DNA of 47,037 nucleotides, taken from positions 1-47,037 of the forward strand of contig CASEYV010000004.1 of the NCBI GenBank assembly GCA_949292245.1, in the 5' to 3' direction. Below, one piece after another: positions 7,437 through 37,031 of this stretch. The notes under the pieces are model-generated. The model searched no databases. It was not told the origin of the DNA and saw only the letters and a list, made by a program, of their open reading frames with translations. Both the position numbers and the translations under genes were made by a program. How positions within the stretch are numbered: position 1 is the first letter of the stretch; every line of letters begins with the position of its first letter. Source of the stretch: an uncultured bacterium. GTDB taxonomy: Bacteria > Bacillota_I > Bacilli_A > RF39 > UBA660.

Positions 7437-7477
7437 GTGTAGTACTCTCTTAAAGGGAAAATAAAAAGAGAGAGTGA
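7437..7477 (+). promoter_or_regulatory. Late leader hairpin, copy 1 (TerL)
   Basis: The sequence GTGTAGTACT (7437-7446) is followed by CTCTCTT, a loop holding AAGGGAAA (7453-7460), and AAGAGAG with the ribosome site GAGAGAGTGA just before ATG 7482. The stem places the Shine-Dalgarno region in the 3' strand. The same arrangement with other stem sequences occurs before four other late genes. Confidence 0.75.
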
Positions 7478-7481
7478 TAGA

Positions 7482-9248
7482 ATGAATTATAAAATTGGTG
7501 ACAAAATCACCATAAAACAACAACCAACAAATTTAGATAGTACTTTTAATGATATTTTATCGGTTCTTCGTTCGCCAAAAATAAAAGAAATCGACAAACT
7601 TACATGGTGCGATAGTATATTGGCTATACTCGAAGAAATGTATAAAAAAGACGAATTAGGAAGTGTTAAAGTAGCAAAACATAAACTAATTCCTATATTA
7701 GAAAAATTAGTAGAAGGGAGCAAAATAGAAAATATGGCTCTCTTTTTTGATTATTATAAAAGAGTGTATAGTTTTTGTGCTAGACGAGATTTTGAATCGT
7801 TTGTTGACTATATAGAATGGAATATGCCTAAAAAAGTATTAGCTAATCGTAGAGAATATTTAAAACCATTAGTTGATGCTTTAAATAGATGTGCATTTGA
7901 TTCAAAATTAGAATACATTATTGCCTCATATCCACCAAGTAGTGCGAAAACATATTTAACTACTATGTTTAGTGCGTGGGCATTTGGATTAAGCATAAAT
8001 AATTCGATTATAAGATTATCTTACTCTGATGAGTTAGCTTTAGGAGCTAGTAGAACAATAAAAGGTTGGTTGTCTAGCCCAGAGTTTGCCGAAATATTTC
8101 CTTTGTTTAAATTATACAATGGTAAACCTTTTAGTACTGAAAAAGAGTCAGATTGGACTATTAAAAATTCTTATGTAGCCAAATCTAACCACATAGCAAG
8201 AAGTAGAGGCGGTTCAGTAACTGGAGAAAGAGCATCATTTGCAATTATACTTGATGATATGTTAAAGGGTGCAGAAGAAGTTAATGCTATAAAAATACAT
8301 GATGATATGTGGAACAAATGGAAAACTGATTGGATTAACAGAAAAACTGATGATCCAATAACTTATATTTTTGTTGGTACACAATGGAGTAATACTGATA
8401 TTTTGAATAAAATAATTGAAGAAAGAGATTCGTATTCAAGATTAATACCGACAGATAACAAGTTTGTTATGGAAAGTGAGGACCATTCTACTGTTGTTAT
8501 AAGAGTACCATTGTTAGATGAAGACAATCATACTACATGCCCATTTTTATATTCACAAAAAGAAGCAATAAAGCTAAAAGAAAGTACAGATCCGTTTTTA
8601 TTCAGTTGCGTATATCAACAAAATCCAATCGCACCAACTGGGCGAGAATTTGATGATACTTTATTGTTGCATTTTGAAGAATTACCACAGGATGAGTATG
8701 GAAATATTGCGTGCAATAAAGGAGCGGTTGCAACATTGGACCCAGCAAGAAAAGGAAAAGACAATGTATCTATGCCAATATGTAGACACGGCTACGATGA
8801 TTTTTATTATTTAGTTGATTGTTTATTTCAACAAAAACCAATGACAGATTTATATGATGATATTGTAGACAAAATAATTGCGAACAATGTTATATTGCTT
8901 GTTATAGAAAACAATACAGATACTTCATTGCCTAAATTAATAGAAGAAAAATTACATCAAAAGGGATATTATATGTGTGAAATAAGAACTAAATATAATA
9001 CTCAACCAAAAGAGCAAAGGATTAAAGACAATAGAGGAATCGTAAGAAGTCGAATTAAATTCAAAGATAAATTAACTTATACGCCTAATAGTGATTATGG
9101 TAGATTTATGTACAATCTGAATATGTATTCGTTTGATTATCCAAACAAACATGATGATGCACCCGATTCTATTTCAATGATGGCTAGTGAAATTATTATG
9201 GGTAAATCAATATTACCTAAGGCTAAACCGTTTAAAAGAACGTTTTAA
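7482..9248 (+). CDS. terL: Terminase large subunit (DNA packaging ATPase/nuclease)
   Basis: At 588 aa the protein is of usual TerL length. The ATPase part has an atypical Walker A (PPSSAKT, 151-157), Walker B IILDD (255-259) and the coupling segment VGTQWS (298-303). The nuclease part has ATLDPARKGKDN, VLLVIENNTD and a late HDDAPDS, giving the acidic metal site of an RNase H fold. It drives DNA into the prohead and cuts concatemers. No small terminase gene lies directly upstream. It is preceded by a late leader hairpin. Confidence 0.93.
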   Translation: MNYKIGDKITIKQQPTNLDSTFNDILSVLRSPKIKEIDKLTWCDSILAILEEMYKKDELGSVKVAKHKLIPILEKLVEGSKIENMALFFDYYKRVYSFCARRDFESFVDYIEWNMPKKVLANRREYLKPLVDALNRCAFDSKLEYIIASYPPSSAKTYLTTMFSAWAFGLSINNSIIRLSYSDELALGASRTIKGWLSSPEFAEIFPLFKLYNGKPFSTEKESDWTIKNSYVAKSNHIARSRGGSVTGERASFAIILDDMLKGAEEVNAIKIHDDMWNKWKTDWINRKTDDPITYIFVGTQWSNTDILNKIIEERDSYSRLIPTDNKFVMESEDHSTVVIRVPLLDEDNHTTCPFLYSQKEAIKLKESTDPFLFSCVYQQNPIAPTGREFDDTLLLHFEELPQDEYGNIACNKGAVATLDPARKGKDNVSMPICRHGYDDFYYLVDCLFQQKPMTDLYDDIVDKIIANNVILLVIENNTDTSLPKLIEEKLHQKGYYMCEIRTKYNTQPKEQRIKDNRGIVRSRIKFKDKLTYTPNSDYGRFMYNLNMYSFDYPNKHDDAPDSISMMASEIIMGKSILPKAKPFKRTF

Positions 9249-9252
9249 TGCA

Positions 9253-9278
9253 AAAATCTCATTATTTGATGAGATTTT
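9253..9278 (+). terminator. Hairpin after TerL, possible terminator
   Basis: An inverted repeat with arms AAAATCTCA and TGAGATTTT (extendable by two pairs) lies four bases after the TerL stop. The 3' arm ends in TTTT and is followed by A, so it would be a weak intrinsic terminator or a mRNA-end stabiliser in the + direction. Confidence 0.5.
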
Positions 9279-9320
9279 ATACTTTGGACATAGCGTTTTT
9301 TCTATAAATAAGGTATAAAC

Positions 9321-9369
9321 ATAACCGAAGGACCCAGTTTTTCCCTTAATTGGTCCTTTAGTGCTACAC
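9321..9369 (-). promoter_or_regulatory. Late leader hairpin element, inverted copy
   Basis: On the - strand this reads GTGTAGCACT, then AAGGACC, a loop with AAGGGAAA, then GGTCCTT and CGGTTATG. The 5' box and loop box match the + strand copies exactly, and the 7-bp stem is different again. No gene follows on the - strand (ATG opens only a 6-codon frame), so its role differs from the sense copies. Confidence 0.65.
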
Positions 9370-9410
9370 GGGAGCATAACCGTAATTAAATTATTGTTGT
9401 GTTCCCTAAT

Positions 9411-9447
9411 TTTATATTTTGGGGAAACCCGAATATAAAGGTGGTGA
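9411..9447 (+). promoter_or_regulatory. Portal leader hairpin, degenerate copy
   Basis: Arms TTTATATT (9411-9418) and AATATAAA (9432-9439) enclose a loop with GGGGAAA and are followed directly by ribosome site GGTGGTGA. The loop resembles the late leader family, but the upstream GTAGCACT box is missing. Confidence 0.5.
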
Positions 9448-9450
9448 ATC

Positions 9451-11022
9451 ATGGAAAATGAAGTGATAGTAAATGAAACAGTCGAAGAAAATACAAACAT
9501 ACAAAGACCGACAGAACAACCGATGACGGCTATTCAACAAGAAGATACAAGGTTATTCGGAAGGAAAATTATTTACGCCGATTATGAACCGGAAGATATG
9601 AATGAAAACACAATTCAACAAATACTTTGCGATGTGTTTAGTTTACATTTACAAAATGCTTATGAAATTCAATATTTAGAAAATTATTACAAAGGGATTC
9701 AACCAATTTTAAATAAAGTAAAGGAAGTAAGACCGACAATTAATAACAAAGTTGTTGAGAACAATGCTTATTATTTAGTTGAATTTAAGAAAAGTTTTGT
9801 TTTTGGTAAACCGATTCAATATGTGCAACGTGGTGATGTCGCTAATAAAGAAGTTGGGGCTTTAAATAGCTATATGATTGCCGAAGACAAGTATTCAAAA
9901 GATACGGAACTTGCAGAAAATTTATATATAGCAGGGATAGGACATCGTTTGGTGTTACCGGAAATAAATGAAGACAGTCCGTTTATGATTGAAAATCTTG
10001 ATAGTAGAACAACTTTTTGTGTTTATTCAAGTAGATTGCCACATAGAAAGTTATTTGGGTGTACATATACGCGGGGTGTTAAAGATTATGCTATTAAAGG
10101 AAGCGTTTATACTAATAATGCTTATTATGAGTTAGGTGGTAATAATACTTATACTGGATTTGAAGTCAAATTCATAAAATGGCATGTACTTCATGAAATA
10201 CCGATTTTCGAATATTACTTAAATAAATCACGACTTGGAATAATTGAAGTAGTTATGGATATTTTAAATGCTATTAATAGGGTAACTTCGGATGAAATTG
10301 ACGGATTAGAGCAATATGTCCAAAGTTTGTTAGTATTTGTAAATCAAGATATAGACAAAAAAGATTTGGATGAAGTTGTTAAACTAGGTGCAGTTAAGAT
10401 ATATTCTCCAGAACCTGGGAAACAAGCTGACTTAAAATTACTATCAAATAATATAGATCATGCTAATACAAAAGTAATTCACGATAGAATGTTTAACACA
10501 GCTTTAAATATTGTTGGAATACCTAAAAATAGTGATAAAGCTAGTGGTGGCGATACTGGACAAGCTAGATATTTAGGTGAAGGTTGGACTATGGCTGATT
10601 CAAGAGCTGATGGCGATGAAATGGAATTTAAGAGATGTTCTAAACCAGAACTTAAAATGATATTAAGAATATGTCGACTTGCTCCAAATAGTGAAATAAA
10701 AAGTTTAACATTGAAAGATATAGACCAAAAATTTACTAGAAACAAATCAGATAACTTCTTGGTAAAATCACAAGGAATGATGAATCAAATTCAAAGTGGT
10801 GTATCACCAGATGTTGCGATGACAACAAGTGGATTATATAGCGATCCAAATGAAACGTTTAACAAATCGATGGAATTTTATGGTGGTATAGAAAATTGGA
10901 TTAAATTATTTATAGGACAAGCCAGCAAACAATTACAAGAAAACAAAAGTAATGATGAGGAAAATAATGGTAACAGTTTTTCTAACAAGACAAACAACGA
11001 TGAAACAAACTTAGACTCTTAG
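9451..11022 (+). CDS. Portal protein (SPP1 gp6-like)
   Basis: The 523-aa protein has the layout of the SPP1-type portal family: an N-terminal extension, an early segment YLENYYKGIQPILNKVKEVRPTINNKVVENNAYYLVEFKKSF near residue 70 typical of the family, a central stem region with VMDILNAINRVTSDEIDGLEQYVQ, and an acidic, Asn-rich C-terminus. It would form the dodecameric ring at one capsid vertex. It starts after GGTGGTGA at ATG 9451. Unusually, four tRNA genes separate it from the scaffold gene. Confidence 0.88.
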   Translation: MENEVIVNETVEENTNIQRPTEQPMTAIQQEDTRLFGRKIIYADYEPEDMNENTIQQILCDVFSLHLQNAYEIQYLENYYKGIQPILNKVKEVRPTINNKVVENNAYYLVEFKKSFVFGKPIQYVQRGDVANKEVGALNSYMIAEDKYSKDTELAENLYIAGIGHRLVLPEINEDSPFMIENLDSRTTFCVYSSRLPHRKLFGCTYTRGVKDYAIKGSVYTNNAYYELGGNNTYTGFEVKFIKWHVLHEIPIFEYYLNKSRLGIIEVVMDILNAINRVTSDEIDGLEQYVQSLLVFVNQDIDKKDLDEVVKLGAVKIYSPEPGKQADLKLLSNNIDHANTKVIHDRMFNTALNIVGIPKNSDKASGGDTGQARYLGEGWTMADSRADGDEMEFKRCSKPELKMILRICRLAPNSEIKSLTLKDIDQKFTRNKSDNFLVKSQGMMNQIQSGVSPDVAMTTSGLYSDPNETFNKSMEFYGGIENWIKLFIGQASKQLQENKSNDEENNGNSFSNKTNNDETNLDS

Positions 11023-11123
11023 CAGTCAAAAAGGCAATATAAGAAACTTTGATGGAAGTACAACATCTATAAAGCCTTATATGTAAGTCCAAGCCAAAGA
11101 AACTTTCGAAGCCTTTGGTTAAT
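11023..11123 (+). other. Spacer between portal gene and tRNA cluster
   Basis: A non-coding stretch with one clear hairpin, arms CCAAAG and CTTTGG near 11093-11119, directly before tRNA-Thr. It may be a processing leader for the tRNAs. No promoter with a good -35 and -10 pair was seen, so the tRNAs are probably cut from the late transcript. Confidence 0.4.
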
Positions 11124-11197
11124 GCCGATTTAGTTTAATGGTAGAACAATGCTCTTGTAAAGCATATATGATTGTTCGATTCAGTCAATCGGCACCA
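11124..11197 (+). tRNA. tRNA-Thr (TGT)
   Basis: Perfect acceptor pairing GCCGATT/AATCGGC, D arm with AATGGTAGAAC, anticodon arm ATGCT-CTTGTAA-AGCAT (anticodon TGT), T arm GATTG-TTCGATT-CAGTC, and an encoded CCA at 11195-11197. Reads ACA threonine codons, which are common in this AT-rich genome. Confidence 0.93.
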
Positions 11198-11201
11198 TAA
11201 T

Positions 11202-11275
11202 ATTTCGATGATGTAATGGTAGCATAACAGTCTCCAAAACTGTTTGTCTAGGTTCAAGTCCTAGTCGATTTGCCA
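11202..11275 (+). tRNA. tRNA-Trp (CCA), imperfect acceptor stem
   Basis: Anticodon arm ACAGT-CTCCAAA-ACTGT gives anticodon CCA. The T arm CTAGG-TTCAAGT-CCTAG is perfect and GCCA ends the gene, with G discriminator as in Trp tRNAs. The acceptor 5' strand ATTTCGA pairs with TCGATTT only at 5 of 7 positions, with two adjacent T-T mismatches, so function is less certain. Confidence 0.8.
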
Positions 11276-11276
11276 T

Positions 11277-11350
11277 GTGGTATTAGTTTAATGGTAGAAC
11301 GATAGTCTTCCAAACTATCGGTATCAGTTCAATTCTGATATACCGCTCCA
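11277..11350 (+). tRNA. tRNA-Gly (TCC)
   Basis: Acceptor GTGGTAT/ATACCGC pairs fully with one G-T wobble. Anticodon arm ATAGT-CTTCCAA-ACTAT gives TCC, T arm ATCAG-TTCAATT-CTGAT is good, and TCCA is encoded at the 3' end. It starts two bases after the previous tRNA. Confidence 0.92.
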
Positions 11351-11351
11351 T

Positions 11352-11428
11352 CTAGCATTAGCCTAGTTTGGTAAGGCACTGCATTTGGGATGCAGAAATC
11401 AGTGGTTCGAATCCATTATGCTAGACCA
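11352..11428 (+). tRNA. tRNA-Pro (TGG)
   Basis: Acceptor CTAGCAT/ATGCTAG is perfect. Anticodon arm CTGCA-TTTGGGA-TGCAG gives TGG, and the T arm ends in ATCC before the acceptor. ACCA is encoded at the end. It is the last of four tandem tRNA genes between portal and scaffold. Confidence 0.93.
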
Positions 11429-11547
11429 TAGTTTATAACTGTTTATCAGTTGTATATAAATTTGCTCATCGTACAGAGCATAAATCGTACGACACTCAAA
11501 TTTGCACCATACAATGTGCCTAAACTTGGCGAGTGGGAAAGGAATAT
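11429..11547 (+). other. Leader between tRNA cluster and scaffold gene
   Basis: Non-coding. It holds a dyad CACTC...GAGTG whose 3' arm is followed at once by GGGAAAGGA, the scaffold ribosome site, with an inner hairpin GCAC...GTGC. It resembles the late leaders in sequestering the start region but the box order differs, so it is not counted as a copy. Confidence 0.4.
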
Positions 11548-12174
11548 ATGAAAGAAAAAATAACAGAAATTTGGAATAATACAGAATTAGATAATGAAGC
11601 AAAGTTAACGGCTTTATTAGATGAAACTAAAAATTTTGTTCCAAAAGCAAGAGTTGATGAATATGCAAAAAGAGTAACAAATTTGGAGAACGAAAAAGAA
11701 CAATTATCAAATGAATTTGAAGATTTCAAAAAAACAAAAATGACAGATGACGAAAAGAGAGTCGCAGAATTAAATAAAATTGAAGCTGATAAAAAGGCAA
11801 ATGCAATTACTAAAAGTGAATTAGCAGTAAAAGGATTATTTTTAGATAATGGGATAAAGATTACTGATGAAGATGTAGAGATTAAAGAAACTTTACAAAA
11901 TATTGTTAGTGAAGATTATGATAAGTCTATTAAATTGGCTAATAACTTTATTTCGTTACTAAATAAAACAAAAGAAAACGCCGAAAAAGAAACAATAACT
12001 AATTTGCTTAACGACACACCAAAACCAGTTGGTGGTACGCAAGCAACTCCAAATATAGACAGAATTGCCGAATTAAAATCACAACTTGATGAAGCTGTTA
12101 AGAAGAATGATACGATTGCACAAGTTCAAATTACAAATGCAATTTTCGAAGAACAAAAAAAGAAAAAAAATTAG
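11548..12174 (+). CDS. Capsid scaffolding protein (gp20-like minor structural protein)
   Basis: The 208-aa protein is acidic, almost all helical and has a central coiled coil (about residues 40-100, ending KTKMTDDEKRVAELNKIEADKKA) of the type found in SPP1/A118-like scaffold proteins. The C-terminus is basic (EEQKKKKN), as expected for capsid contact. It lies directly before the major capsid gene. ATG 11548 is chosen for the ribosome site GGGAAAGGA; an in-frame GTG at 11533 has none. Confidence 0.82.
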   Translation: MKEKITEIWNNTELDNEAKLTALLDETKNFVPKARVDEYAKRVTNLENEKEQLSNEFEDFKKTKMTDDEKRVAELNKIEADKKANAITKSELAVKGLFLDNGIKITDEDVEIKETLQNIVSEDYDKSIKLANNFISLLNKTKENAEKETITNLLNDTPKPVGGTQATPNIDRIAELKSQLDEAVKKNDTIAQVQITNAIFEEQKKKKN

Positions 12175-12178
12175 CTAT

Positions 12179-12225
12179 GTGTGGCACTTCGTTTAAAAAT
12201 AGGGAAATAGAAAAAAACGAGGTGA
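12179..12225 (+). promoter_or_regulatory. Late leader hairpin, copy 2 (major capsid)
   Basis: GTGTGGCACT (12179-12188), then stem CTTCGTTT pairing with AAACGAGG (one G-T pair) around a loop with AGGGAAA. The ribosome site GAGGTGA is inside and just after the 3' arm, 7 bases before ATG 12232. Confidence 0.75.
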
Positions 12226-12231
12226 TTAAAT

Positions 12232-13260
12232 ATGACAGGTACAGAAACTGTACAATCATTTAGTGTTCCTAATTATTCAGGAATATTATACAATAAAGCA
12301 AATACAAAAACTCCATTTTTAAATATGATTAGTGGAAAAACAAAATACACAAATTCAGTAGAATTTGTATGTGGACAATATTATACAAGTGAGGAAGGTG
12401 CTATTCCAGCTATTAGTGAAACCGCATCATTAACAGCACCAGACGCAACATTTGTAACAAGAGCACAAAATAGTAATGTTACACAAATATTTATGGAATC
12501 TGTTGCTATTTCTTACGCAAAACAATCTAATATGGCTACATTAAGTGGTGTTAATATTGCTGGACAAGTAGCAAATCCACAATATGAGTTATCTTTCCAA
12601 GTAGCACAAAAAATGGATAAAATCAAAAGAAGTATTGAAAAAACATTTATTCAAGGAACATATAATAAAGCTACAACAGATGCAACCATCAATAAAACTA
12701 GAGGCATAGTTGAAGCTATTACAACTAATGTTGTTACTGCCGGAACAAAACCATTAGATATTTGGTTAGTAAACGATGCACAACAAGAAATCTATGATGC
12801 ACAGGGTGATATTAGCAACTTATATTTATGGACTAATACAGTTGGTTTAAATCAATTACAAGCCGATGCTATTAAATGGGGTATGAAAATGGGAGAACCA
12901 TATATGAGTGCTTATGGTGTTCAAGTATGGGATATTATCTTACCATTAGGAACAGTTCATATTGCTTTAGGTGAATTTTTACCATCTGGAACAGCATTAT
13001 TATTAAATTTTGATGTAATTGGACCAGTAGAACAACCAGTACCAGGCAAAGGAAATTTCTTCTTAGAACCATTAGCAAAAACTGGTGCAGGGGAAAAATA
13101 TCAAATTTTTGGTCAAATTGGATTAGATCACGGACCAGAATGGTATCATGCTAAGATTACTGGATTAACAACAACATTTACTAAACCAACACCAACTATT
13201 GATGTTAATGTAACAAATTCAACTGATGCTCCTGTAAATACAAAAGAAGTATCAGCTTAA
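12232..13260 (+). CDS. Major capsid protein (DUF5309 / SU10-like)
   Basis: The 342-aa protein has the hallmarks of the DUF5309 capsid family: an N-terminal SFSVPNYSGILYNKANTKTPFLNMI, the Q-V-F-region NVTQIFMESVAISYAKQSN, LSFQVAQKMDKIKRSIEKTFI near residue 125, and a late GQIGLDHGPEWYHAKITGL. It would form the HK97-fold shell. It has no leader-peptide domain; scaffold is a separate protein. It has its own leader hairpin and is followed by connector genes. Confidence 0.88.
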   Translation: MTGTETVQSFSVPNYSGILYNKANTKTPFLNMISGKTKYTNSVEFVCGQYYTSEEGAIPAISETASLTAPDATFVTRAQNSNVTQIFMESVAISYAKQSNMATLSGVNIAGQVANPQYELSFQVAQKMDKIKRSIEKTFIQGTYNKATTDATINKTRGIVEAITTNVVTAGTKPLDIWLVNDAQQEIYDAQGDISNLYLWTNTVGLNQLQADAIKWGMKMGEPYMSAYGVQVWDIILPLGTVHIALGEFLPSGTALLLNFDVIGPVEQPVPGKGNFFLEPLAKTGAGEKYQIFGQIGLDHGPEWYHAKITGLTTTFTKPTPTIDVNVTNSTDAPVNTKEVSA

Positions 13261-13291
13261 TAAAATTCTTTTAAAGTAAGGAAGTGTATTT

Positions 13292-13633
13292 ATGAGTCGA
13301 GAAGAACAACTAAAAAAAATGCGACTAGAAATTTTAGGTAATGTTACCGACGAATCAAAAGATGATTATTTTAAGGATAAGCTAGACGACGCAGAGGTTG
13401 TTGCTCTAAATGCACTTTTTCCTTATGATTTTAGTCAAAAAGAATTAGACAAAACAAACAAAAGACTAGCGAATTGGCAAACAAGGTGTGCGATTGAATT
13501 ATATAAGAAAATGGGTACGACTAATGTTCAATCATATAGCGAGAATGGATTAACAGTAACTTATTTAACTGGATTAATATCTAGTGAATTATTAAGCGAA
13601 TTAACACCACCAAAAGCAGGTGTTCCAAGATGA
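13292..13633 (+). CDS. Head-tail connector protein
   Basis: The 113-aa product is predicted all-helical with the segment DDYFKDKLDDAEVVALNALFPY and NWQTRCAIELYKKMG, which fits the gp15/gp6-like adaptor family that binds the portal. The C-terminus ISSELLSELTPPKAGVPR is typical. It overlaps the next gene by 4 bases. Start ATG 13292 follows AAGGAAG. Confidence 0.75.
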   Translation: MSREEQLKKMRLEILGNVTDESKDDYFKDKLDDAEVVALNALFPYDFSQKELDKTNKRLANWQTRCAIELYKKMGTTNVQSYSENGLTVTYLTGLISSELLSELTPPKAGVPR

Positions 13634-14013
13634 TAACGAAAATTAATGCTAATCCAAGTGATTGGGTTAAAGATGTTTATATTGCGAGTAAAATTCGTGT
13701 TGATTTAGACGAAGAAGGCAATGAAATTACAATTTATGATAAACCTAATAAAACACCTTATAGATTTAATTATCAACCAGTTAGTACTGATGCCGAGATT
13801 GCTGAATTTGGTGAAAATGCCAAAATAATGAAAAAAGCAGTTATCCCTGTTTCATATCAAGGTATGTTTAAAGAATTTGATGTTGCATATCTTGATGGTG
13901 TGACACCAGTTGGCGAAATGCAAAATGGAGATAACGCAAATTATAGATTATTGCCACCTAGAGATGGTAATTCAGTTATAATTATATATTTTGAAAAACT
14001 TACCGGAAAGTAG
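13630..14013 (+). CDS. Putative head closure (stopper) protein
   Basis: The 127-aa protein is mostly beta and lies at the position of the stopper/head closure protein in SPP1-like gene orders. It contains a repeated loop-rich centre (YQGMFKEFDVAYLDG) and a C-terminal strand SVIIIYFEKL. Assignment is from position and fold impression, not from a firm motif. Confidence 0.5.
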   Translation: MITKINANPSDWVKDVYIASKIRVDLDEEGNEITIYDKPNKTPYRFNYQPVSTDAEIAEFGENAKIMKKAVIPVSYQGMFKEFDVAYLDGVTPVGEMQNGDNANYRLLPPRDGNSVIIIYFEKLTGK

Positions 14014-14020
14014 GTGTACT

Positions 14021-14236
14021 ATGTATAAATTTACAAACGGAATAATCGTTTTCGATGAAACGACTAAAAATAATCTTATCAAAGCTGGACATAAACTTGT
14101 TAAAGAAGAAGTTACTTGTGATGAAAAAAATATTAATGAAGTAGTCGAACCAAAAGACGAGGTACTAGATGAAAACAGTATTGACAATGGAATTGTCGAA
14201 GAAAAGCCTAGAAGAAGCAAAAAATCTTCTAAATAG
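14021..14236 (+). CDS. Small acidic protein (71 aa)
   Basis: ATG 14021 follows TAGGTG. The N-terminus MYKFTNGIIVFDETTKNNLIKAGHKL is folded-looking, and the rest is acidic with a basic tail RRSKKSSK. Similar small proteins occur between connector and tail genes of Bacillota phages, without known role. It overlaps the following gene by 68 bases. Confidence 0.6.
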   Translation: MYKFTNGIIVFDETTKNNLIKAGHKLVKEEVTCDEKNINEVVEPKDEVLDENSIDNGIVEEKPRRSKKSSK

Positions 14237-14678
14237 ATTTGCTGATTTTTATGAAAAGGGCATAGATAATGCTGTCAGATATGCAACAGAAGCGATGTAT
14301 AAGAAAGTTTTAGAATATTGCTATGCTAACGGTATTTATAATCATGCAAATGAAGTAAAATGGGATTACAATGAGAACACTAAAGTTGGAAGAGTTTGGA
14401 CTACTGATATGGTCTTAATTTTAAATGAGATGGGTAGTGGTATTGTAGGAGCGAACAAACCTCATCCAAATCCCAACCCAGCATTTAAAAGTTGGAAATA
14501 TGATGTTAACGAACACGGCGAAAAAGGATGGATATATCCTAAAGATGACGGAACTTACGGTTGGACAAGAGGTTTACCAAGTAGACACATGTTCTTTGAT
14601 GCCTTTAACGATATTAAAGATGAAATAGGAAATATTGTAGAAGTTGAATTACGAAAGACGGCAGGTGATTTATATTGA
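14169..14678 (+). CDS. HK97 gp10-like tail completion protein
   Basis: The 169-aa product has an N-terminal helix pair, the pattern VWTTDMVLILNEMGSGIVG followed by an HPNP loop, and RGLPSRHMFFDAFNDIKDEI, a Ser-Arg-His region typical of gp10 family proteins in which ARPF/RHMF precedes the last helix. It probably joins the tail to the head. The start ATG 14169 has GAGG upstream; the long overlap with the preceding gene is unusual. Confidence 0.7.
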   Translation: MKTVLTMELSKKSLEEAKNLLNRFADFYEKGIDNAVRYATEAMYKKVLEYCYANGIYNHANEVKWDYNENTKVGRVWTTDMVLILNEMGSGIVGANKPHPNPNPAFKSWKYDVNEHGEKGWIYPKDDGTYGWTRGLPSRHMFFDAFNDIKDEIGNIVEVELRKTAGDLY

Positions 14679-15118
14679 TAGTAGAAAATTTATTTGAAAC
14701 TATTATTTATCCACAAATAAAAGAATATGTAGAACAAAATTCAATATATAACCCGACTGTTACCAAAACAATGCCACAAGAAAGTAAAGTTTTCCCGATT
14801 GTTCCAACTAAACTATTGCCAGTAACTAATCAGTACAATAATTTAAGTTATGGTGAAGAAACTTATACATTTGGAATTGAAATAGATGTTTATGCAGAAG
14901 ATAAAACAATTAATAATAAAAAAGTATCTAAAAGAACTATCTGTAATGAAATAACTGAAGTTATTGTAAATTACTTTAAAGTTAATTATCGTGTTACTAT
15001 AAAAGTTGAATTAGATGCACCAAATGTAGATAGTAATATACATAGAAATAATATAAAGACAACTGGAAAATTAGATACAAAATATGGATTAGATAAATTA
15101 GTTATCTATCCGAAATAA
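14675..15118 (+). CDS. Putative tail terminator protein
   Basis: The 147-aa protein starts at TTG 14675 after CAGGTGA and overlaps the gp10-like gene by 4 bases. It begins with a helix (VENLFETIIYPQIKEYV) and continues with strands (YTFGIEIDVYAED), the pattern of gpU/gp17-like tail terminators, and sits directly before the tail tube gene. Assignment rests on order and fold impression. Confidence 0.6.
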   Translation: MIVENLFETIIYPQIKEYVEQNSIYNPTVTKTMPQESKVFPIVPTKLLPVTNQYNNLSYGEETYTFGIEIDVYAEDKTINNKKVSKRTICNEITEVIVNYFKVNYRVTIKVELDAPNVDSNIHRNNIKTTGKLDTKYGLDKLVIYPK

Positions 15119-15160
15119 ATGTAGCACTTCAAATTGTAAGGGAAATTACAATGAGAGGTG
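15119..15160 (+). promoter_or_regulatory. Late leader hairpin, copy 3 (tail tube)
   Basis: GTAGCACT (15121-15128) starts a two-part stem. Outer CACTTC pairs with the ribosome site GAGGTG (15155-15160), and inner ATTGTAA pairs with TTACAAT around loop GGGAAA. This is the clearest case of Shine-Dalgarno sequestration. ATG 15169 follows. Confidence 0.8.
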
Positions 15161-15168
15161 AATAATAA

Positions 15169-15597
15169 ATGTTAGATTTAGGTATTGAATTAAGAGTTAA
15201 AGAAGAAGCGGAAGAAACCTATAGCAAAGCTGTTTTAGTAGCAGTTAAGGGTATGCCAGCAACTGGACAAGCAGGTGGTACTGTAGAAACAACTACTTCA
15301 AGCGATTCAGTAAAAGTATACGTTGCTGATCGTCCAGATACTGGAGATATGGATTTTACATATAATTATTCTGAAACTAATTTAGAAGCAGTTAATGATG
15401 TTTGTGATAATACACAGAAAGATATTTTAATTAAGTTGCCTGATGGTACTGGATTTGAATATAAAGGAACAATTCAGACTTGGGTAAATGAGGTATCAGT
15501 TGGTGGTATTATCGAATGTACTTTACATACTGTTCCTAGTGTTGCACCAGCATATAAAACAGCAGAAGAAGTAACAGCATTAATAGCTACAGCATAA
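15169..15597 (+). CDS. Major tail (tube) protein
   Basis: The 142-aa protein has the short beta-barrel layout of siphophage tube proteins: ETYSKAVLVAVKGMP, GTVETTTSSDSVKVYVADR, DMDFTYNY, then KLPDGTGFEYKGTIQTW and VGGIIECTLHTVPS. The family builds stacked hexamer rings around the tape measure. Context (after terminator, before chaperone and tape measure) agrees. Confidence 0.85.
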   Translation: MLDLGIELRVKEEAEETYSKAVLVAVKGMPATGQAGGTVETTTSSDSVKVYVADRPDTGDMDFTYNYSETNLEAVNDVCDNTQKDILIKLPDGTGFEYKGTIQTWVNEVSVGGIIECTLHTVPSVAPAYKTAEEVTALIATA

Positions 15598-15619
15598 CAA
15601 AAGAAAGTAGGGAAAAACA

Positions 15620-15958
15620 ATGAGAAAATTAGAATTAAAAATTAATGATAAAGATTATCAATTACAAATGACTAGAGATAGTATTAAATGGTTAGAGGCA
15701 AATGGCTTTTCTGTTGAAGACTTTAACAAAAAGCCAATTACTTATTTTGATTTGCTATGGGCTAGTTTATTTATGGCTAACCATAAAGATGTAAATCCAA
15801 ATTTAGCTTTAAAATTAATGGATACTTATGAAAAAAGCGGTAAAAAAGTTGCAAATATCGTTAAGTTTGCGATTGAAGAATATCAAGCTTTTATGAATGC
15901 CCTATCCGATACAAGCTCGACGGAGAACGACGAGGAACTAAAGATAATCGAGATATAG
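15620..15958 (+). CDS. Tail assembly chaperone, short form (gpG-like)
   Basis: The 112-aa protein (MRKLELKINDKDYQLQMT..., SIKWLEANGFSVEDF, LLWASLFMANHKDV) matches the DUF5055-type tail chaperones that precede tape measure genes. A second open frame (-1) overlaps its end and continues to 16404, the lambda gpG/gpGT arrangement. It binds the tape measure during tail assembly and is not expected in the virion. ATG 15620 follows AGTAGGGAA. Confidence 0.8.
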   Translation: MRKLELKINDKDYQLQMTRDSIKWLEANGFSVEDFNKKPITYFDLLWASLFMANHKDVNPNLALKLMDTYEKSGKKVANIVKFAIEEYQAFMNALSDTSSTENDEELKIIEI

Positions 15959-16404
15959 TAGAAAATGAAGAAAAAGGTAAACAATACAAAAACTTAACAG
16001 ATTGGTTTTATGATTTGTTGCCTATGGCAATTACATATGGTATGTCTGTGAAAGAGTTTTGGGATGGAAACCCTGACTTGTTCTGGGCATACCGTTTTTC
16101 TTATTTTGACAAATTAAAACGTGAACAAGAAATGTTCAATAATAATGCTTGGCTACAAGGGGCTTATTTTCATGAAGCAATATCGGTGGCATTGTGTAAT
16201 GCTTTTGGCAAACGAAAGGTTGAATACTCGAAAGAACCATATAACATATATAAAGACAAAGTTGAAGACAAAACAAAAGCGAGCGATGCTTTAGTAGCTA
16301 AAATAAAGGGAAGAGTATCACAGGTACAATCAATTTTAAAAAATAAAGAAAGTAGCACTACTGAAAGGGAAACAATCCAAGAAAGTGGTGAGCAAAATGG
16401 ATAG
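15877..16404 (+). CDS. Tail assembly chaperone, frameshift extension (gpT-like part)
   Basis: This -1 frame is open from 15877 and has no good start: the only early candidates are TTG 16015 and 16018 without a ribosome site. The segment DWFYDLLPMAITYGMSVKEFWDGNPDLFWAYRFSY is the typical gpT-like part. Production by -1 slippage near the end of the upstream frame is therefore likely. No canonical X-XXY-YYZ site is seen in the overlap; T-TTT-ATG at 15889-15895 is the best candidate. Coordinates give the open frame, not a free-standing gene. Confidence 0.7.
   Translation, partial: RISSFYECPIRYKLDGERRGTKDNRDIVENEEKGKQYKNLTDWFYDLLPMAITYGMSVKEFWDGNPDLFWAYRFSYFDKLKREQEMFNNNAWLQGAYFHEAISVALCNAFGKRKVEYSKEPYNIYKDKVEDKTKASDALVAKIKGRVSQVQSILKNKESSTTERETIQESGEQNG
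16352..16391 (+). promoter_or_regulatory. Late leader hairpin, copy 4 (tape measure)
   Basis: GTAGCACT (16352-16359), stem CACTAC pairing with GTGGTG (one G-T pair), loop containing AAAGGGAAA. The 3' arm holds the ribosome site GGTGA of the tape measure gene. Unlike the other copies it lies inside a coding region, the end of the chaperone extension. Confidence 0.75.
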
Positions 16405-19400
16405 TACACAAACACTAGAACTGCAAATAAAATCAAAATCACAAGAAGCGAAAAACAGTGTAGACAGTTTGGTTAAGAGTTTAACTGGGATAGAAAATGT
16501 ATTAACAAACATATATACCCGATTAGGCAACATTGAAAAAAAATCAAACACGAGTGTTAACAAGACAATAAGTGACATTGATGAATTAAAATCTAGATCA
16601 GATAAGGCAACAAATAGTATTAACAAACTTAGTAAGAGTTTAACATTAAGTGGAACTTATGTAGCAATAAAACGTTTCACAGGTCAATTTTTGGATTGGA
16701 TGAACGAAGCTGTTGATTATACCGAACAATTAAATTTGTTTAATGTAGTATTTAAGAACATTGAGAAAGATGGAGTACAAACTTTTTCGACTTTAGGCAA
16801 AGAAGCAACACAATTTCAGTATAGACTTAATGAAGCCTTCGGAACTAACAAGACACAAACTTTTTATATGCAAGGTATCTTTCAATCTATGGGTGAATCA
16901 GTTGGCATTCCGGACACGTATTCTGCAATAATGTCAGAAACGATGACTAAATTATCTTATGACCTAGCATCTTTGTATAACAAAACCGAAAAAGATACAG
17001 CTGAGGCTATAAGAGCTGGTGTATATGCTGGGCAAACTAAACCTTTAAGAAGTTACGGTATTGATGTTACCCAACAAACATTACAGCCGATTCTTGAATC
17101 ATTGGGAATTGATGATAGAACAGTAAAACAAATGACGCAAGCTGAAAAGGAAATATTGAGATATATTGCCACAATGAAACAAGCAAAAGTTGCGATGGGA
17201 GATTTGGCGAATACCATAGAATCTCCAAGTAACCAATTAAAAGTTTTTAGACAGCAATTAGTAGAAACGAAAGTTGCTCTTTCAAGTTTGTTTATGGGAA
17301 CATTTGCAAACGTATTGCCTTATTTTAATGCATTTTTAATGGTAGTTAAAGAAGTAACAAAGTCACTTGCAGATATGTTCGGTATAGAACTTACCGATTA
17401 TAATTCTGGTATAGCTAGTCAGGAAGATGCTTATGTAGATTTAGAAGATAGCATAGACGGTGCAGTTGAGAGTGCAAAAGAATTGAAAAGGCAAACATTG
17501 GGATTTGATCAAATAAATAATATTAACGAAAATAAAGATTCTGGAAGTGGCAATGGTTCGAATTTAATTGATGGAATTGATCAAAGATTGCTCGATGCAA
17601 TCAAAGGCTATGATAATGGTATGGAAAGTGTAAGAATGAAAGCTACACAAATCAGAGATAACATTATGGAATGGTTAGGCTTTACTAAGGAGATAGATCC
17701 CTTAACTGGCGAAGTTAGTTTTAAATACGAGGGAATTAATAAAACTTTAGGTAATATTTGGAAATCCTTTATGAACTTAAATACACAAGGTAAAATACTT
17801 GTAGGAATAGGACTGTATGCATTGGTTAGTAAATTATTAGGTGGTACAAAAAAATTAACTACTGCATTAGGTGCGGGAACAGGACTATTAGGAGGTACAA
17901 AAAAACTATTATCTCCTATGAAATCCTTATATAAGTCGTTAGATAACGTTAATTATTATAATAAATCATTAACACAAGGATTGAAGGAAGGAATAACAAA
18001 TTGGTCCAAATCTTTAACTATGGCAGATAGATTTAAAGTATCTTTAATTGGCATTTTAGGTTTATCAACAAGTATGAGTGGAATGGCATCTGCAATGAAA
18101 AGTGTATCGGATGAAGGATGGAACATGGGAAATTCGTTACAAGCGGCAGCTAGTGGTTTTGGTAGTATAGCTAGTGGTGCTTATATTGGGTCGATATTTG
18201 GTCCTTTAGGTACTGCAATCGGTGGAGCAACTGGAGCTTTGTTAGCTCTTATTAGTGCTACTGATGGATATGAAACAGAAAGTGAAAAGATGTTGGAAAA
18301 GACAATGGAGTCTAATGAGGCAATGAAAGAATATGTGAATTCAATTAATGAAACAAAAAAAGCATTGGAAGATAAATTGATTTCTGACTTATCCGTAACA
18401 CAGCATCATGAAAATTTGTTACAAGAAATGGAAGAATTAATCGATGCAAATGGAAAAGTAAAAGAAGGTTATGAAGATAGAGTCAACTTTATTCTCAACG
18501 AATTGAATACAGCGTATGGAACGGAATATGAACTAATTGATGGCATTATAAGTAAAAATGGTGAGCAGGTAAAAAGCTACGAAGAGATAGAGACAGCAAT
18601 TCATGGAATTATAAAAGCAAAGCAAGCTGAAATAATTTTAAATGCATACGAAGAAGAATACACAGAAGCATTAAAGAGAAATTTAACTAATTTTGCAAAA
18701 AAAGAGCAAGCTTTAAAAGACTTGGTATCAGCACAAGAGGCGGTAAATAAAAAGCAACAAGAATGGGAACAAATTGTCGCAACAACACCTACAAATTTAT
18801 TAAGTGTTGAAATGAATAACTATAATACTGAGTTGAATAAATTAAAAGAAAACTTAAAAATAGCAGAAGAGACATATAATGGCTATGTTAAACAATACGA
18901 AGAAGATAGTAAGCTAATAATAAACTATGAACAATTAAAAACAGATGTCCTTATGGAAAATTATGAGAATTTAGAAGAAAAAATCGTGGAATTAACAAAT
19001 GTTTACGAGAAAGAGAACAATGGTCAAGTAGAAAATGTGAAAGCTACAATGTCTGAACTCTTGAAATACTATAAAGAACAAGGCGATATGATGCTAGAAA
19101 CCGTCAAGGAAAACGGTGGAGAAATTACAAAAGAATTGGAAACTCAAGCTTATTCTAATTATAAGATAGTCTTGAATTCGTTAATATCCCAATCTCAAAC
19201 CATAGATGGTATGACAGATGAAATAGTGAATACATGGATAACTCTGGCAAAACAAAGTGAAGCTGGATTTTTGGAAGGTTTTTCAAAATTGCCAGAAGAT
19301 ATTCAATCTGAAGTTGTTGACAAAATGCAAGAAAAAGGTTATTCGATTAGTGAAGAGTTGCAGAAGGGAATAAATAAAATAAACCCGAAAATCAATATAG

Positions 19401-19846
19401 ATGTTGACACTAAAAAGGCAAGTGGCAAACTCACTACTTGGATGGAAACCATAAGAAAAACCCTAAATTCTATGCTAGATAATATAGAAATTATGAACAA
19501 TAATAATAGCGGTTTTAAATCTAACGGAGGAGCTTATTTTAATGGCAAATGGCATAACATACAGCAGTTTGCAAACGGTGGTTCACCATCCCACGGAACT
19601 TTATTTTGGGCTGGCGAAGCAGGTGCAGAAGTGGTAGCGAATGCAAATGGAAAGACAGAGGTGCTTAATCAATCACAAATCGCTAGTACAATATATAGTG
19701 CTGTATATAATGCTATGAGTCAATTCAGTGGGCAATCTAGCGAAATAGATGTTTATGTTCATACTGATGAAGGAACAGTAATAGATAGAATAGAACAAAG
19801 AATAAAGCAAACTGGACAATTTCCATTTACAATTCCGACATACTAA
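16397..19846 (+). CDS. Tape measure protein
   Basis: At 1149 aa this is the longest protein in the window. It starts with a coiled coil (residues 1-90), has a conserved tape-measure core (about 100-330, with MQGIFQSMG, LYNKTEKDTAEAIRAGVYAGQTKPLRSYGID), a Gly/Ala-rich hydrophobic stretch near 590-625 (GAYIGSIFGPLGTAIGGATG), a long coiled coil and a C-terminal GTLFWAGEAGAEVV segment common in Bacillota phages. It sets tail length and may help DNA passage. ATG 16397 is chosen by the ribosome site GGTGA at 16387-16391. Confidence 0.92.
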   Translation: MDSTQTLELQIKSKSQEAKNSVDSLVKSLTGIENVLTNIYTRLGNIEKKSNTSVNKTISDIDELKSRSDKATNSINKLSKSLTLSGTYVAIKRFTGQFLDWMNEAVDYTEQLNLFNVVFKNIEKDGVQTFSTLGKEATQFQYRLNEAFGTNKTQTFYMQGIFQSMGESVGIPDTYSAIMSETMTKLSYDLASLYNKTEKDTAEAIRAGVYAGQTKPLRSYGIDVTQQTLQPILESLGIDDRTVKQMTQAEKEILRYIATMKQAKVAMGDLANTIESPSNQLKVFRQQLVETKVALSSLFMGTFANVLPYFNAFLMVVKEVTKSLADMFGIELTDYNSGIASQEDAYVDLEDSIDGAVESAKELKRQTLGFDQINNINENKDSGSGNGSNLIDGIDQRLLDAIKGYDNGMESVRMKATQIRDNIMEWLGFTKEIDPLTGEVSFKYEGINKTLGNIWKSFMNLNTQGKILVGIGLYALVSKLLGGTKKLTTALGAGTGLLGGTKKLLSPMKSLYKSLDNVNYYNKSLTQGLKEGITNWSKSLTMADRFKVSLIGILGLSTSMSGMASAMKSVSDEGWNMGNSLQAAASGFGSIASGAYIGSIFGPLGTAIGGATGALLALISATDGYETESEKMLEKTMESNEAMKEYVNSINETKKALEDKLISDLSVTQHHENLLQEMEELIDANGKVKEGYEDRVNFILNELNTAYGTEYELIDGIISKNGEQVKSYEEIETAIHGIIKAKQAEIILNAYEEEYTEALKRNLTNFAKKEQALKDLVSAQEAVNKKQQEWEQIVATTPTNLLSVEMNNYNTELNKLKENLKIAEETYNGYVKQYEEDSKLIINYEQLKTDVLMENYENLEEKIVELTNVYEKENNGQVENVKATMSELLKYYKEQGDMMLETVKENGGEITKELETQAYSNYKIVLNSLISQSQTIDGMTDEIVNTWITLAKQSEAGFLEGFSKLPEDIQSEVVDKMQEKGYSISEELQKGINKINPKINIDVDTKKASGKLTTWMETIRKTLNSMLDNIEIMNNNNSGFKSNGGAYFNGKWHNIQQFANGGSPSHGTLFWAGEAGAEVVANANGKTEVLNQSQIASTIYSAVYNAMSQFSGQSSEIDVYVHTDEGTVIDRIEQRIKQTGQFPFTIPTY

Positions 19847-19884
19847 AAAAGTGTCAATCGTATAAGTAGTCTTGACACTCGATA
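19847..19884. terminator. Bidirectional terminator between tape measure and lipoprotein genes
   Basis: Arms AGTGTCAA (19850-19857) and TTGACACT (19872-19879) form an 8-bp stem, with A-run on the left and T-run on the right, between the convergent ends of the tape measure and lipoprotein genes. The lipoprotein stop codon lies within the left arm. It would end transcripts from both sides, although the late operon must read past it. Confidence 0.75.
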
Positions 19885-20192
19885 TTTTTGATTATAATTT
19901 CATAATCTTGAATATTAGATAAGTTTCCAGTATATAAGCATTCTACATTTTTTACTTCACCAGATTCCAAAACGAACGAATAAATACAATTACCTTCTTC
20001 CGTTAATTCACCGTTTTTATAAACTAATTTAATATGAATATGATTACATTTTTCATTAGAACTGTTTTTGACACTACCAACGCTATGATATAAACCACCT
20101 ATTTTCTCCCACCTAAAATTTGAAGCTTCAAATTTTTTCCCACATCCACACAACATAATACAACATACTACTAATAATAATATTTTTCTCAT
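19854..20192 (-). CDS. Lipoprotein, likely lysogenic conversion (moron) gene
   Basis: The 112-aa product has a signal peptide (MRKILLLVVCCIMLCGCGKK) with a lipobox ending in C, so it would be anchored outside the host membrane. The mature part, with SVGSVKNSSNEKCNHIHIKLVYKNG, resembles the FxLYD domain of bacterial lipoproteins. It is the only - strand gene in the late module, with its own promoter and a shared terminator: the usual form of a moron expressed from the prophage. ATG 20192 is preferred because AGGAG then lies 7 bases upstream; the ATG at 20198 is too close. Confidence 0.8.
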   Translation of the reverse strand: MRKILLLVVCCIMLCGCGKKFEASNFRWEKIGGLYHSVGSVKNSSNEKCNHIHIKLVYKNGELTEEGNCIYSFVLESGEVKNVECLYTGNLSNIQDYEIIIKNIECQDYLYD

Positions 20193-20215
20193 AAACATTC
20201 TCCTTATCCATTCAA

Positions 20216-20245
20216 ATTATATCAAATAAATTAAAAAATGTGTAG
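20216..20245 (-). promoter_or_regulatory. Promoter of the lipoprotein gene
   Basis: On the - strand a perfect -10 TATAAT (20221-20216) lies 24 bases before the start codon, after an A/T-rich spacer. No good -35 box is present at 17 bp (the position overlaps the late leader element on the other strand), so it is a weak or regulated promoter. Confidence 0.5.
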
Positions 20246-20279
20246 CACTTTCTTTCGAAGGGAAATTGAAAGACGGTGA
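20240..20279 (+). promoter_or_regulatory. Late leader hairpin, copy 5 (distal tail protein)
   Basis: GTGTAGCACT (20240-20249), inner stem CTTTC/GAAAG around a loop with GAAGGGAAA, outer CACT pairing with GGTG (20275-20278), which is the ribosome site of the next gene. The element overlaps the upstream region of the lipoprotein promoter. Confidence 0.78.
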
Positions 20280-20283
20280 AAAA

Positions 20284-36878: not shown

Positions 36879-36951
36879 GGTGGGGTAGTGTAATGGTAGC
36901 ACATGAGGCTCATAACCTTAAGGACGAGTTCGAATCTCGCGACCGCAACCA
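36879..36951 (+). tRNA. tRNA-Met (CAT), imperfect acceptor stem
   Basis: Anticodon arm TGAGG-CTCATAA-CCTTA gives CAT, D arm GTG...CAC and T arm CGAG-TTCGAAT-CTCG are good, and CCA is encoded. The acceptor GGTGGGG against GACCGCA pairs at only four positions. It may be elongator Met, or Ile with modified CAT, or a decayed copy. An extra base pair can be gained if T at 36878 is included with a bulge. Confidence 0.7.
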
Positions 36952-36955
36952 ATAT

Positions 36956-37031
36956 TCTTGGATAGACAAATGGTAAAGTCATCACACTTTGAATGTGAAG
37001 TTTGGTAGTTCGAATCTATCTCCAAGAGCCA
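36956..37031 (+). tRNA. tRNA-Gln (TTG)
   Basis: Perfect acceptor TCTTGGA/TCCAAGA with G discriminator and encoded CCA. Anticodon arm TCACA-CTTTGAA-TGTGA gives TTG. T arm GGTAG-TTCGAAT-CTATC is good. It starts five bases after tRNA-Met. Confidence 0.93.

Follow-up and report, generated by a model that had tools for sequence, protein, structure and literature searches.

In tailed phages, the timing of late gene expression is usually credited to transcription, through sigma factors, antiterminators and activators. The window analyzed here, a 47,037-nucleotide stretch of DNA from an uncultured bacterium, carries five late phage genes preceded by hairpins that involve the Shine-Dalgarno (SD) sequence. 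This raises the question of whether these genes are switched at the level of translation as a set, and by what. In this study, we examined the hairpins, their relatives and the surrounding DNA. We consider that a phage small RNA (sRNA) of approximately 80 nt, encoded between TerL and portal, is likely to be a trans-acting translational activator of virion genes, and that this one sRNA probably turns on most virus-particle proteins together.

All five hairpins described in the initial annotation were found at their places on the forward strand. Target element E1 (7437..7481) lies before TerL (ATG 7482), with box 1, GTAGTACT, at 7439-7446, the loop box AAGGGAAA extending to 7460 and the SD (GAGAGTG) in the 3' arm (fold z -3.1); its box 1 is a C-to-U variant that is G.U compatible with the sRNA. 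E2 (12179..12231) precedes the major capsid protein (ATG 12232; box 1 GTGGCACT at 12181-12188, loop box at 12201-12207, SD GAGGTGA), and E3 (15119..15168) precedes the major tail protein (ATG 15169; box 1 GTAGCACT at 15121-15128, loop box at 15139-15145, SD GAGGTGA, fold z -4.8). E4 (16350..16396; box 1 at 16352-16359, loop box at 16366-16372, SD GTGGTGA, fold z -3.7) sits within the 3' end of the ORF preceding the tape measure (ATG 16397). E5 (20240..20283; box 1 at 20242-20249, loop box at 20259-20265, SD CGGTGA, fold z -2.6) precedes a gene starting at GTG 20284. Profiles confirmed the identities of TerL, capsid, major tail (tail tube) protein and tape measure. The name "distal tail" given earlier to the fifth gene found no such profile match; it is purely positional, since the sole matches were DUF6711, below the Pfam cut-off, and phrog_1194, of unknown function (hereafter the Dit-position gene).

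Box 1 (GTRGYACT) is present in 9 copies across the window where 1.8 would be expected, and none of 100 shuffles reached 9. AGGGAAA follows 6-12 nt 3' of box 1 in five copies, all 5' of the named genes, and the spacing between the boxes (6-13 nt in the window) tracks stem length. Compared with dinucleotide shuffles, the five leaders have fold z scores of -2.0 to -4.8. The stem pairs quoted previously are present in the window sequence, and the proposed pairing of CACT in the 5' box with the GGTG/AGTG of the ribosome site was also confirmed: at the stem base, CACU pairs with the GGUG of the SD.

Relatives were searched with capsid and portal queries because the TerL query gave one relative only, and the comparison covers one phage family. 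The same element precedes homologous genes in approximately 40 relatives, phages as well as prophages of gut and rumen Bacilli; the capsid-gene copy is kept in approximately 37 related contigs, and the TerL copy is absent in one sub-clade. Among 92 distinct copies, the native arms pair with a mean energy of -7.79 kcal/mol versus -5.34 kcal/mol when the 3' arms are swapped (z = -15), and swapped arms were as good as native ones in 0/300 trials, both overall and within each gene. The forward strand folds better in 75 of the 92 target hairpins, and the SD is always downstream of the forward-strand copies. The earlier view that stem pairing is kept while bases change, as evidence for an RNA structure, was borne out by this arm-swap test, and it also withstood the search for further copies and for covariation, both of which were found.

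The SD is predicted to be buried in these leaders. Over 99 leaders, its predicted unpaired probability is 0.13 in the free state and 0.51 with box 1 occupied, and occupying only the loop does not release it in the predicted accessibility. Target genes tend to bury their SD, a tendency not shared by the non-target genes of these phages, the Dit-position gene being the exception in this comparison, for which SD sites were chosen automatically. The capsid leader of phage L012 has both boxes, and its SD is not buried. Covariation, predicted accessibility and the control genes together support cis sequestration of the ribosome-binding site by the target leaders, as the initial annotation had proposed.

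A sixth occurrence of both boxes, overlooked until now and key to the system, is a single copy on the minus strand, at positions 9340-9367 in the gap that separates TerL from portal. On the forward strand, this locus encodes the putative sRNA (9327..9406), consisting of hairpin H1, a single-stranded anti-box 1 and hairpin H2, with a fold z of -6.2, covariance-model matches and covariation. H1 (9327..9359) presents the loop UUUUUCCCUU (about 9337-9347), antisense to the AAGGGAAA target loop, with the minus-strand AGGGAAA match at 9340-9346. Anti-box 1, AGUGCUACAC (9360..9369), is antisense to the target GUGUAGCACU, with the minus-strand GTAGCACT match at 9360-9367. H2 (9370..9406), a stem followed by a U-rich tract, resembles a leaky terminator and also covaries. 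The two exposed sRNA segments are thus antisense, in antiparallel order, to the two boxes of the target leaders.

In every element-bearing phage with sequence covering the TerL-portal region, the sRNA occupies this position, and its covariance model (R1) gave matches at E < 1e-7 in element-bearing phages only. With this model, the sRNA was not found in 17 GC-rich relatives or in L115-L121, and relatives without elements lack it. GTGCTAC of anti-box 1 shows no change in 28 sRNAs, while 9 of the 10 pairs of H1 are altered on both sides; H1 and H2 together have 14 such pairs, a number reached in 0/500 shuffles. H1 has 35 G.U versus 8 A.C, and the forward strand folds better in 26/28 sRNAs.

A putative -10 box (TATAAA) for a transcript of sRNA and portal lies at 9314..9319 on the forward strand and is enriched in relatives, 70% of which have at most one mismatch to TATAAT versus 33% of shuffles. 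No promoter passed a sigma-70 consensus scan of the window interval, and near-consensus sigma-70 promoters are present in L011 and L004. A terminator scan of the same interval was negative and H2 is not a classic terminator; a U-rich tract follows H2 in most phages, with a U fraction of 0.63 in the 14 nt 3' of H2 versus 0.30 overall T. The sRNA may exist as a separate molecule of about 80 nt, or the segment could stay attached to the portal mRNA as its 5' leader. Upstream, a terminator-like palindrome with a U-tract lies 3' of TerL (9253..9282, forward strand), and palindromes of differing sequence follow TerL in many relatives, as judged by eye; TerL is therefore putatively in a separate transcript.

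Changes in the sRNA are matched in the targets (CCCUG/CAGGG, CCCC/GGGG and GGUG/CACC). In L126, the sRNA loop CCCUGG faces target loops CCAGGGA, CAGGG and CCAGGGAA, and in L004 the sRNA CCCC faces GGGG in the TerL and capsid leaders. In the tape-measure leader of L006, L008 and L028, the arms read CACCAC/GUGGUG, so the cis and trans partners change together. The co-occurrence of sRNA GGUG with target CACC is significant (Fisher p = 5e-4, shared ancestry ignored), and 4/20000 between-phage swaps were as good as the native sRNA-target pairing, again with shared ancestry ignored. Transition-type deviations in core box 1 are 17 G.U and 0 A.C, and those in the loop are 9 G.U and 1 A.C. In L129, box 1 position 8 is mismatched with three of the four extracted targets. 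Overall, pairing between the sRNA and the leaders is well supported.

The computations demonstrate both structures, their covariation, the complementarity with its co-change and the strand polarity, and a mechanism can be proposed around them. Each target leader would be shut by pairing of the hairpin-base CACU with the GGUG of the SD. The first contact would be a kissing interaction between the sRNA loop (UUUCCCUU) and the target hairpin loop (AAGGGAAA). The single-stranded sRNA segment AGUGCUAC would then invade GUAGCACU, with the unpaired GUAG as toehold, and strip CACU from the SD, the AGUG/GGUG of the sRNA imitating the SD being displaced. Sequestration and sRNA binding are mutually exclusive, as CACU pairs either with the SD GGUG or with the sRNA AGUG/GGUG. 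Production of the sRNA would then allow ribosomes to initiate jointly on TerL, capsid, tail tube, tape measure and the Dit-position gene. In cofolding with the sRNA, predicted SD accessibility rises from 0.44 to 0.84 for the Dit-position gene, from 0.14 to 0.37 for capsid, from 0.04 to 0.38 for TerL and from 0.15 to 0.43 for tail tube; the tape-measure leader hardly opens (0.15 to 0.19). We think it fairly likely that a virus-encoded sRNA serves as a master switch, which would use loop contact, strand exchange and SD mimicry to open five SD-locked leaders that belong to head, packaging and tail genes and are spread over at least two transcripts.

The pairing evidence agrees with either direction of regulation, and the same sRNA might instead repress its targets, if pairing 5' of the SD blocked ribosomes or recruited RNase III and so tuned or delayed the virion proteins. 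Most phage antisense RNAs repress, according to the available part of one review (PMC12197685), and the L012 capsid SD is open already. However, the SD is already hidden in the leaders when no sRNA is bound (unpaired probability 0.13), occupation of box 1 exposes it, the sRNA does not cover it, and CACU serves for pairing with the SD as well as with the sRNA, as in strand-exchange activators. Repression is thus unlikely, and the modeled folds point to activation. Still less probable is a leader acting in cis, in which the sRNA segment remains part of the late mRNA throughout and coordinates translation by long-range pairing inside it. TerL and its element are upstream, past the terminator-like palindrome and therefore out of cis reach from the sRNA/late transcript, and the U-rich tract 3' of H2 in most phages also speaks against it, although the segment does stand where the putative late transcript begins, 5' of four of the five targets, and H2 is no classic terminator.

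Phage coat and RegA proteins are known regulators that bind such sites, and conserved boxes around variable stems would also be expected if a phage or host protein recognized them as an operator for repression or activation. This explanation predicts neither the reverse complement of both boxes at one conserved locus, within its own covarying hairpin, nor the co-change with the targets and core deviations that are G.U but not A.C. Complementary RNA accounts for the boxes without a protein operator, which is very improbable; of the two switches suggested earlier, a protein or a small RNA acting on the set, it is the small RNA that the conserved, covarying and co-changing antisense sequence supports. 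A DNA-level site for a late activator or packaging protein, with five forward copies and one reverse copy, would make the sRNA locus the same bipartite site inverted, and box co-change alone would fit. Yet neither fixed spacing nor strand-symmetric conservation was found: the spacing varies, the hairpin arms covary and fold better on the forward strand, core deviations are G.U rather than A.C, and forward copies always precede an SD, which leaves this reading a negligible chance. Also rejected were a protein sponge, which would carry copies of the boxes where the sRNA carries complements, and transcription terminators in the leaders, which have no U-tracts.

Searches of the open-licence literature yielded no account of a comparable system, and no Rfam family reached threshold, gathering or permissive, at the sRNA (9200-9460) or the capsid-leader region. 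In synthetic toehold switches and riboregulators, a trigger RNA invades an unpaired toehold 5' of a hairpin that hides the ribosome-binding site; the window system differs in being natural, in its extra conserved loop-loop contact and in having one trigger for several mRNAs. The trans-activating "anti-antisense" sRNAs of the DsrA/RprA-rpoS, RNAIII-hla and PhrS-pqsR pairs open an SD-sequestering leader via its 5' arm. These are host-encoded with usually one activated target each, whereas the window sRNA is virus-encoded, with a multi-gene regulon made up of the phage's own virion genes, and a predicted loop-loop contact. PhrS is cited in PMC4825925. IsrK of the Salmonella prophage Gifsy-1 is likewise a prophage sRNA at an operon head with a leaky terminator (target orf45-anrP), and its short form acts in trans, binding a phage mRNA that is translationally inactive and exposing its ribosome-binding site (PMC4825925). 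With a single target ORF, IsrK governs an antiterminator and toxicity (PMC4825925), whereas the window sRNA matches five virion-gene leaders, one on a separate transcript, through a shared two-box code; the absence of an Rfam match for the sRNA gives no sign of homology to IsrK or another Rfam family. The CI RNA of phage P4 also pairs with complementary sites (seqA/seqC) in its own transcripts (PMC4825925); it causes transcription termination for immunity, whereas the window elements lie on SD sites without terminators. STnc6030, a phage-derived RNA acting on the BTP1 tailspike virion gene, is encoded in cis and represses that one gene as an antisense RNA, which serves superinfection exclusion (PMC12197685), whereas the window sRNA would pair in trans over short segments with several genes and is predicted to activate them. 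Nor is it encoded opposite a target, as repressors of the Sar, OOP and STnc6030 type are, since its locus is the TerL-portal gap and it shares the strand of its targets.

If the proposed activation is true, conserved RNA-RNA gating of virion-gene translation would add a new layer to phage development in a phage lineage of uncultured gut Bacilli; it would be a natural multi-output toehold switch and the post-transcriptional equivalent of a late transcription activator. The pairing code predicts that compensatory changes in sRNA and leader will break and then restore translation. The system may also provide a ready orthogonal regulator for synthetic biology and a marker for recognizing the phage lineage. 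Six of 385 other genomes of the order carry the sRNA, all within the host family of the window, and it is therefore not a general host gene. Two-box pattern scans of viral contigs gave many matches, of which the sRNA-like ones, by script and by eye, belong to the same phage lineage; the remaining ones look like chance coding matches. Among annotated phages, the closest relative of the portal protein has 37% identity.

The window is a complete contig (47,037 bases) in a 1.69-Mb genome bin of 108 contigs, and its phage late region encodes TerL (phrog_38 match), an SPP1-type portal, an SU10-type major capsid protein, a major tail (tail tube) protein (phrog_158 match), a tape measure (phrog_1535 match) and, in the Dit position, a gene that matches DUF6711 and phrog_1194 only. 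The hairpin element described in the initial annotation is present 5' of all of these except the portal gene. It consists of GTGTAGCACT (box 1, ending in CACU), a stem whose sequence varies, a loop containing AAGGGAAA (loop box) and a 3' arm bearing the Shine-Dalgarno (SD) site. All five leaders give better folds than shuffled versions of themselves (z -2.0 to -4.8). That inventory of boxes was incomplete, since an additional match to both boxes lies on the minus strand at 9340-9367, in the gap between TerL and portal.

On the plus strand this antisense locus reads GAAGGACC-CAGUUUUUCCCUUAAUU-GGUCCUUU-AGUGCUACAC-GGGAGCAUAACC...GUUGUGUUCCC. It comprises two hairpins, H1 and H2. The H1 loop is antisense to AAGGGAAA of the targets, and the single strand between the hairpins is antisense to GUGUAGCACU. 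The two segments have the order and polarity needed to pair at the same time with any one of the five leaders. The fold of the 82-nt RNA has z = -6.2. A terminator-like palindrome after TerL, a putative -10 box before H1 and a U-rich tract after H2 suggest a separate small RNA (sRNA), with read-through into portal, that would act on TerL in trans; we infer that it is a discrete molecule. In three relatives (L011, L028 and L029) tRNA-like sequences follow H2 and might define the sRNA 3' end. At 9395-9430 of the window and in many related phages, GUUCCC of the H2 3' arm can alternatively pair with GGGAAC just 5' of the portal SD, a possible attenuator or portal control.

Both the target hairpins and the sRNA are RNAs of the plus strand. 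This strand gave the better fold for 75 of 92 target hairpins, 26 of 28 H1 and 25 of 28 H2, and H1 cells held 35 G.U against 8 A.C. Among the 28 sRNAs, 89% of cells were paired, against 81% in shuffles and 41-50% in slid structures. Both sides had changed in 14 of 21 pairs, and every covariation measure, with kinship ignored, exceeded 500/500 shuffles. Native pairing of target arms averaged -7.79 kcal/mol versus -5.34 when arms were swapped between elements; within each gene it was better than all 300 swaps (kinship ignored).

The capsid protein query found 80 loci; the query with the portal alignment found 44 in viral sequences and 7 in host genomes. Those in host genomes come from Bacilli/Bacillota MAGs, and some lie on 93-248 kb contigs and are therefore probably prophages. 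The element stands 5' of the capsid gene in the AT-rich close group of capsid matches, mostly also before the tail tube, tape measure and Dit-position genes, and before TerL in part of the group. Every element-bearing phage whose sequence covers the region upstream of portal carries the antisense locus there. With its covariance model (R1), element-bearing phages score E < 1e-7, and nothing comparable was found in 17 GC-rich relatives or in the element-free L115-L121; weak minus-strand matches at the same place are the mirror of H2. Within the order of the host, six of 385 genomes contain the sRNA, and all six belong to the host's own family.

The evidence for sRNA-target pairing is drawn from one phage lineage, in which the two partners change together. 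The sRNA loop CCCUGG of L126 is matched by CCAGGGA (tail tube), CAGGG (tape measure) and CCAGGGAA (Dit-position), and CCCC of the L004 sRNA by GGGG in both the TerL and capsid leaders. In the sub-clade L006/L008/L011/L028 and in L012, AGUGCUAC of the sRNA is replaced by GGUGCUAC, and CACU of the Dit-position and tape-measure leaders by CACC (CGCC in L012) (association of GGUGCUAC with CACC, Fisher p = 5e-4 over distinct elements, kinship ignored). L006, L008 and L028 have CACCAC in the tape-measure leader, perfectly complementary to GUGGUG of the SD, so that cis partner, target and sRNA agree. The stem of the L012 Dit-position leader is wholly replaced (GCCUUCCUC/GAGGAGGC around AGGAGG), and this leader is still complementary to its own sRNA (ACGUAGCGCC/GGUGCUACGU). 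When sRNAs were swapped among 21 classes, pairing became weaker (-22.50, against -23.33 for native partners), and 4/20000 swaps were as good (kinship ignored).

It is very unlikely that the boxes are instead sites in DNA or for a protein, as such a site would give no preference for G.U over A.C. When 95 elements were compared with the sRNA of the same phage (kinship ignored), the core of box 1 (positions 3-8) showed 17 G.U and 0 A.C, and the loop box 9 G.U and 1 A.C; for positions 3-5, which lie outside the cis hairpin, the counts were 9 and 0. The variants GTAGTACT and GTGGCACT listed in the initial annotation are precisely changes of this G.U-compatible kind. Conservation is lower at positions 1-2, where the helix ends and where A.C and other mismatches occur, and position 8 of L129 fits the pairing model poorly.

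Pairing with the sRNA is predicted to expose the SD. Over 99 leaders, its mean unpaired probability was 0.13 when free, 0.51 with box 1 unavailable and 0.12 with only the loop unavailable. With SD sites chosen automatically, the SD was buried more often in target than in non-target genes of the same phages, the Dit-position gene excepted. In cofolding of the window sRNA with its own leaders, by a program that cannot represent loop-loop contact, box 1 paired with AGUGCUACAC and the SD was freed in 4 of 5; the tape-measure leader opened weakly. These results suggest a model in which loop contact would provide recognition, GUAG of the leader would serve as toehold, and CACU would be exchanged from the SD to the sRNA, switching translation on. 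Activation is the model's reading, and the kissing step is presumed; the L012 capsid leader fits poorly.

As modelled, the mode of action is that of a trans-activating sRNA. The closest case on record, IsrK of Gifsy-1 (PMC4825925), is encoded at the head of an operon and switches on an inactive phage mRNA in trans, although it does so for one ORF and another purpose. No such family was found in Rfam, and the passages that a keyword search of a 2025 phage-sRNA review reached (PMC12197685) included none on an sRNA activating a set of virion genes. Within the open-licence literature and Rfam, the sRNA is not a member of any described family.

Another structured and conserved RNA, a double pseudoknot in which two helices cross, occupies 11467-11545 in the leader of a scaffold-like gene (ATG 11548). 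Its sequence is unrelated to that of the five elements and matched no Rfam family at threshold. In this RNA 84% of cells are paired, both sides have changed in 14 of 23 pairs, and 0/500 shuffles reach its covariation score; the outer helix, least supported (61% paired), ends adjoining the SD. It is possibly a cis-regulator of scaffold synthesis. Four tRNA genes (Thr, Trp, Gly, Pro) lie at 11124-11428, between portal and the scaffold gene. At 37042-37650 and 36879-37028, a ROOL RNA (RF03087, 167.7 bits) directly follows tRNA genes. Inside ORF 22431, ACTTCAAAA is repeated in tandem in about five copies at about 22641-22682.
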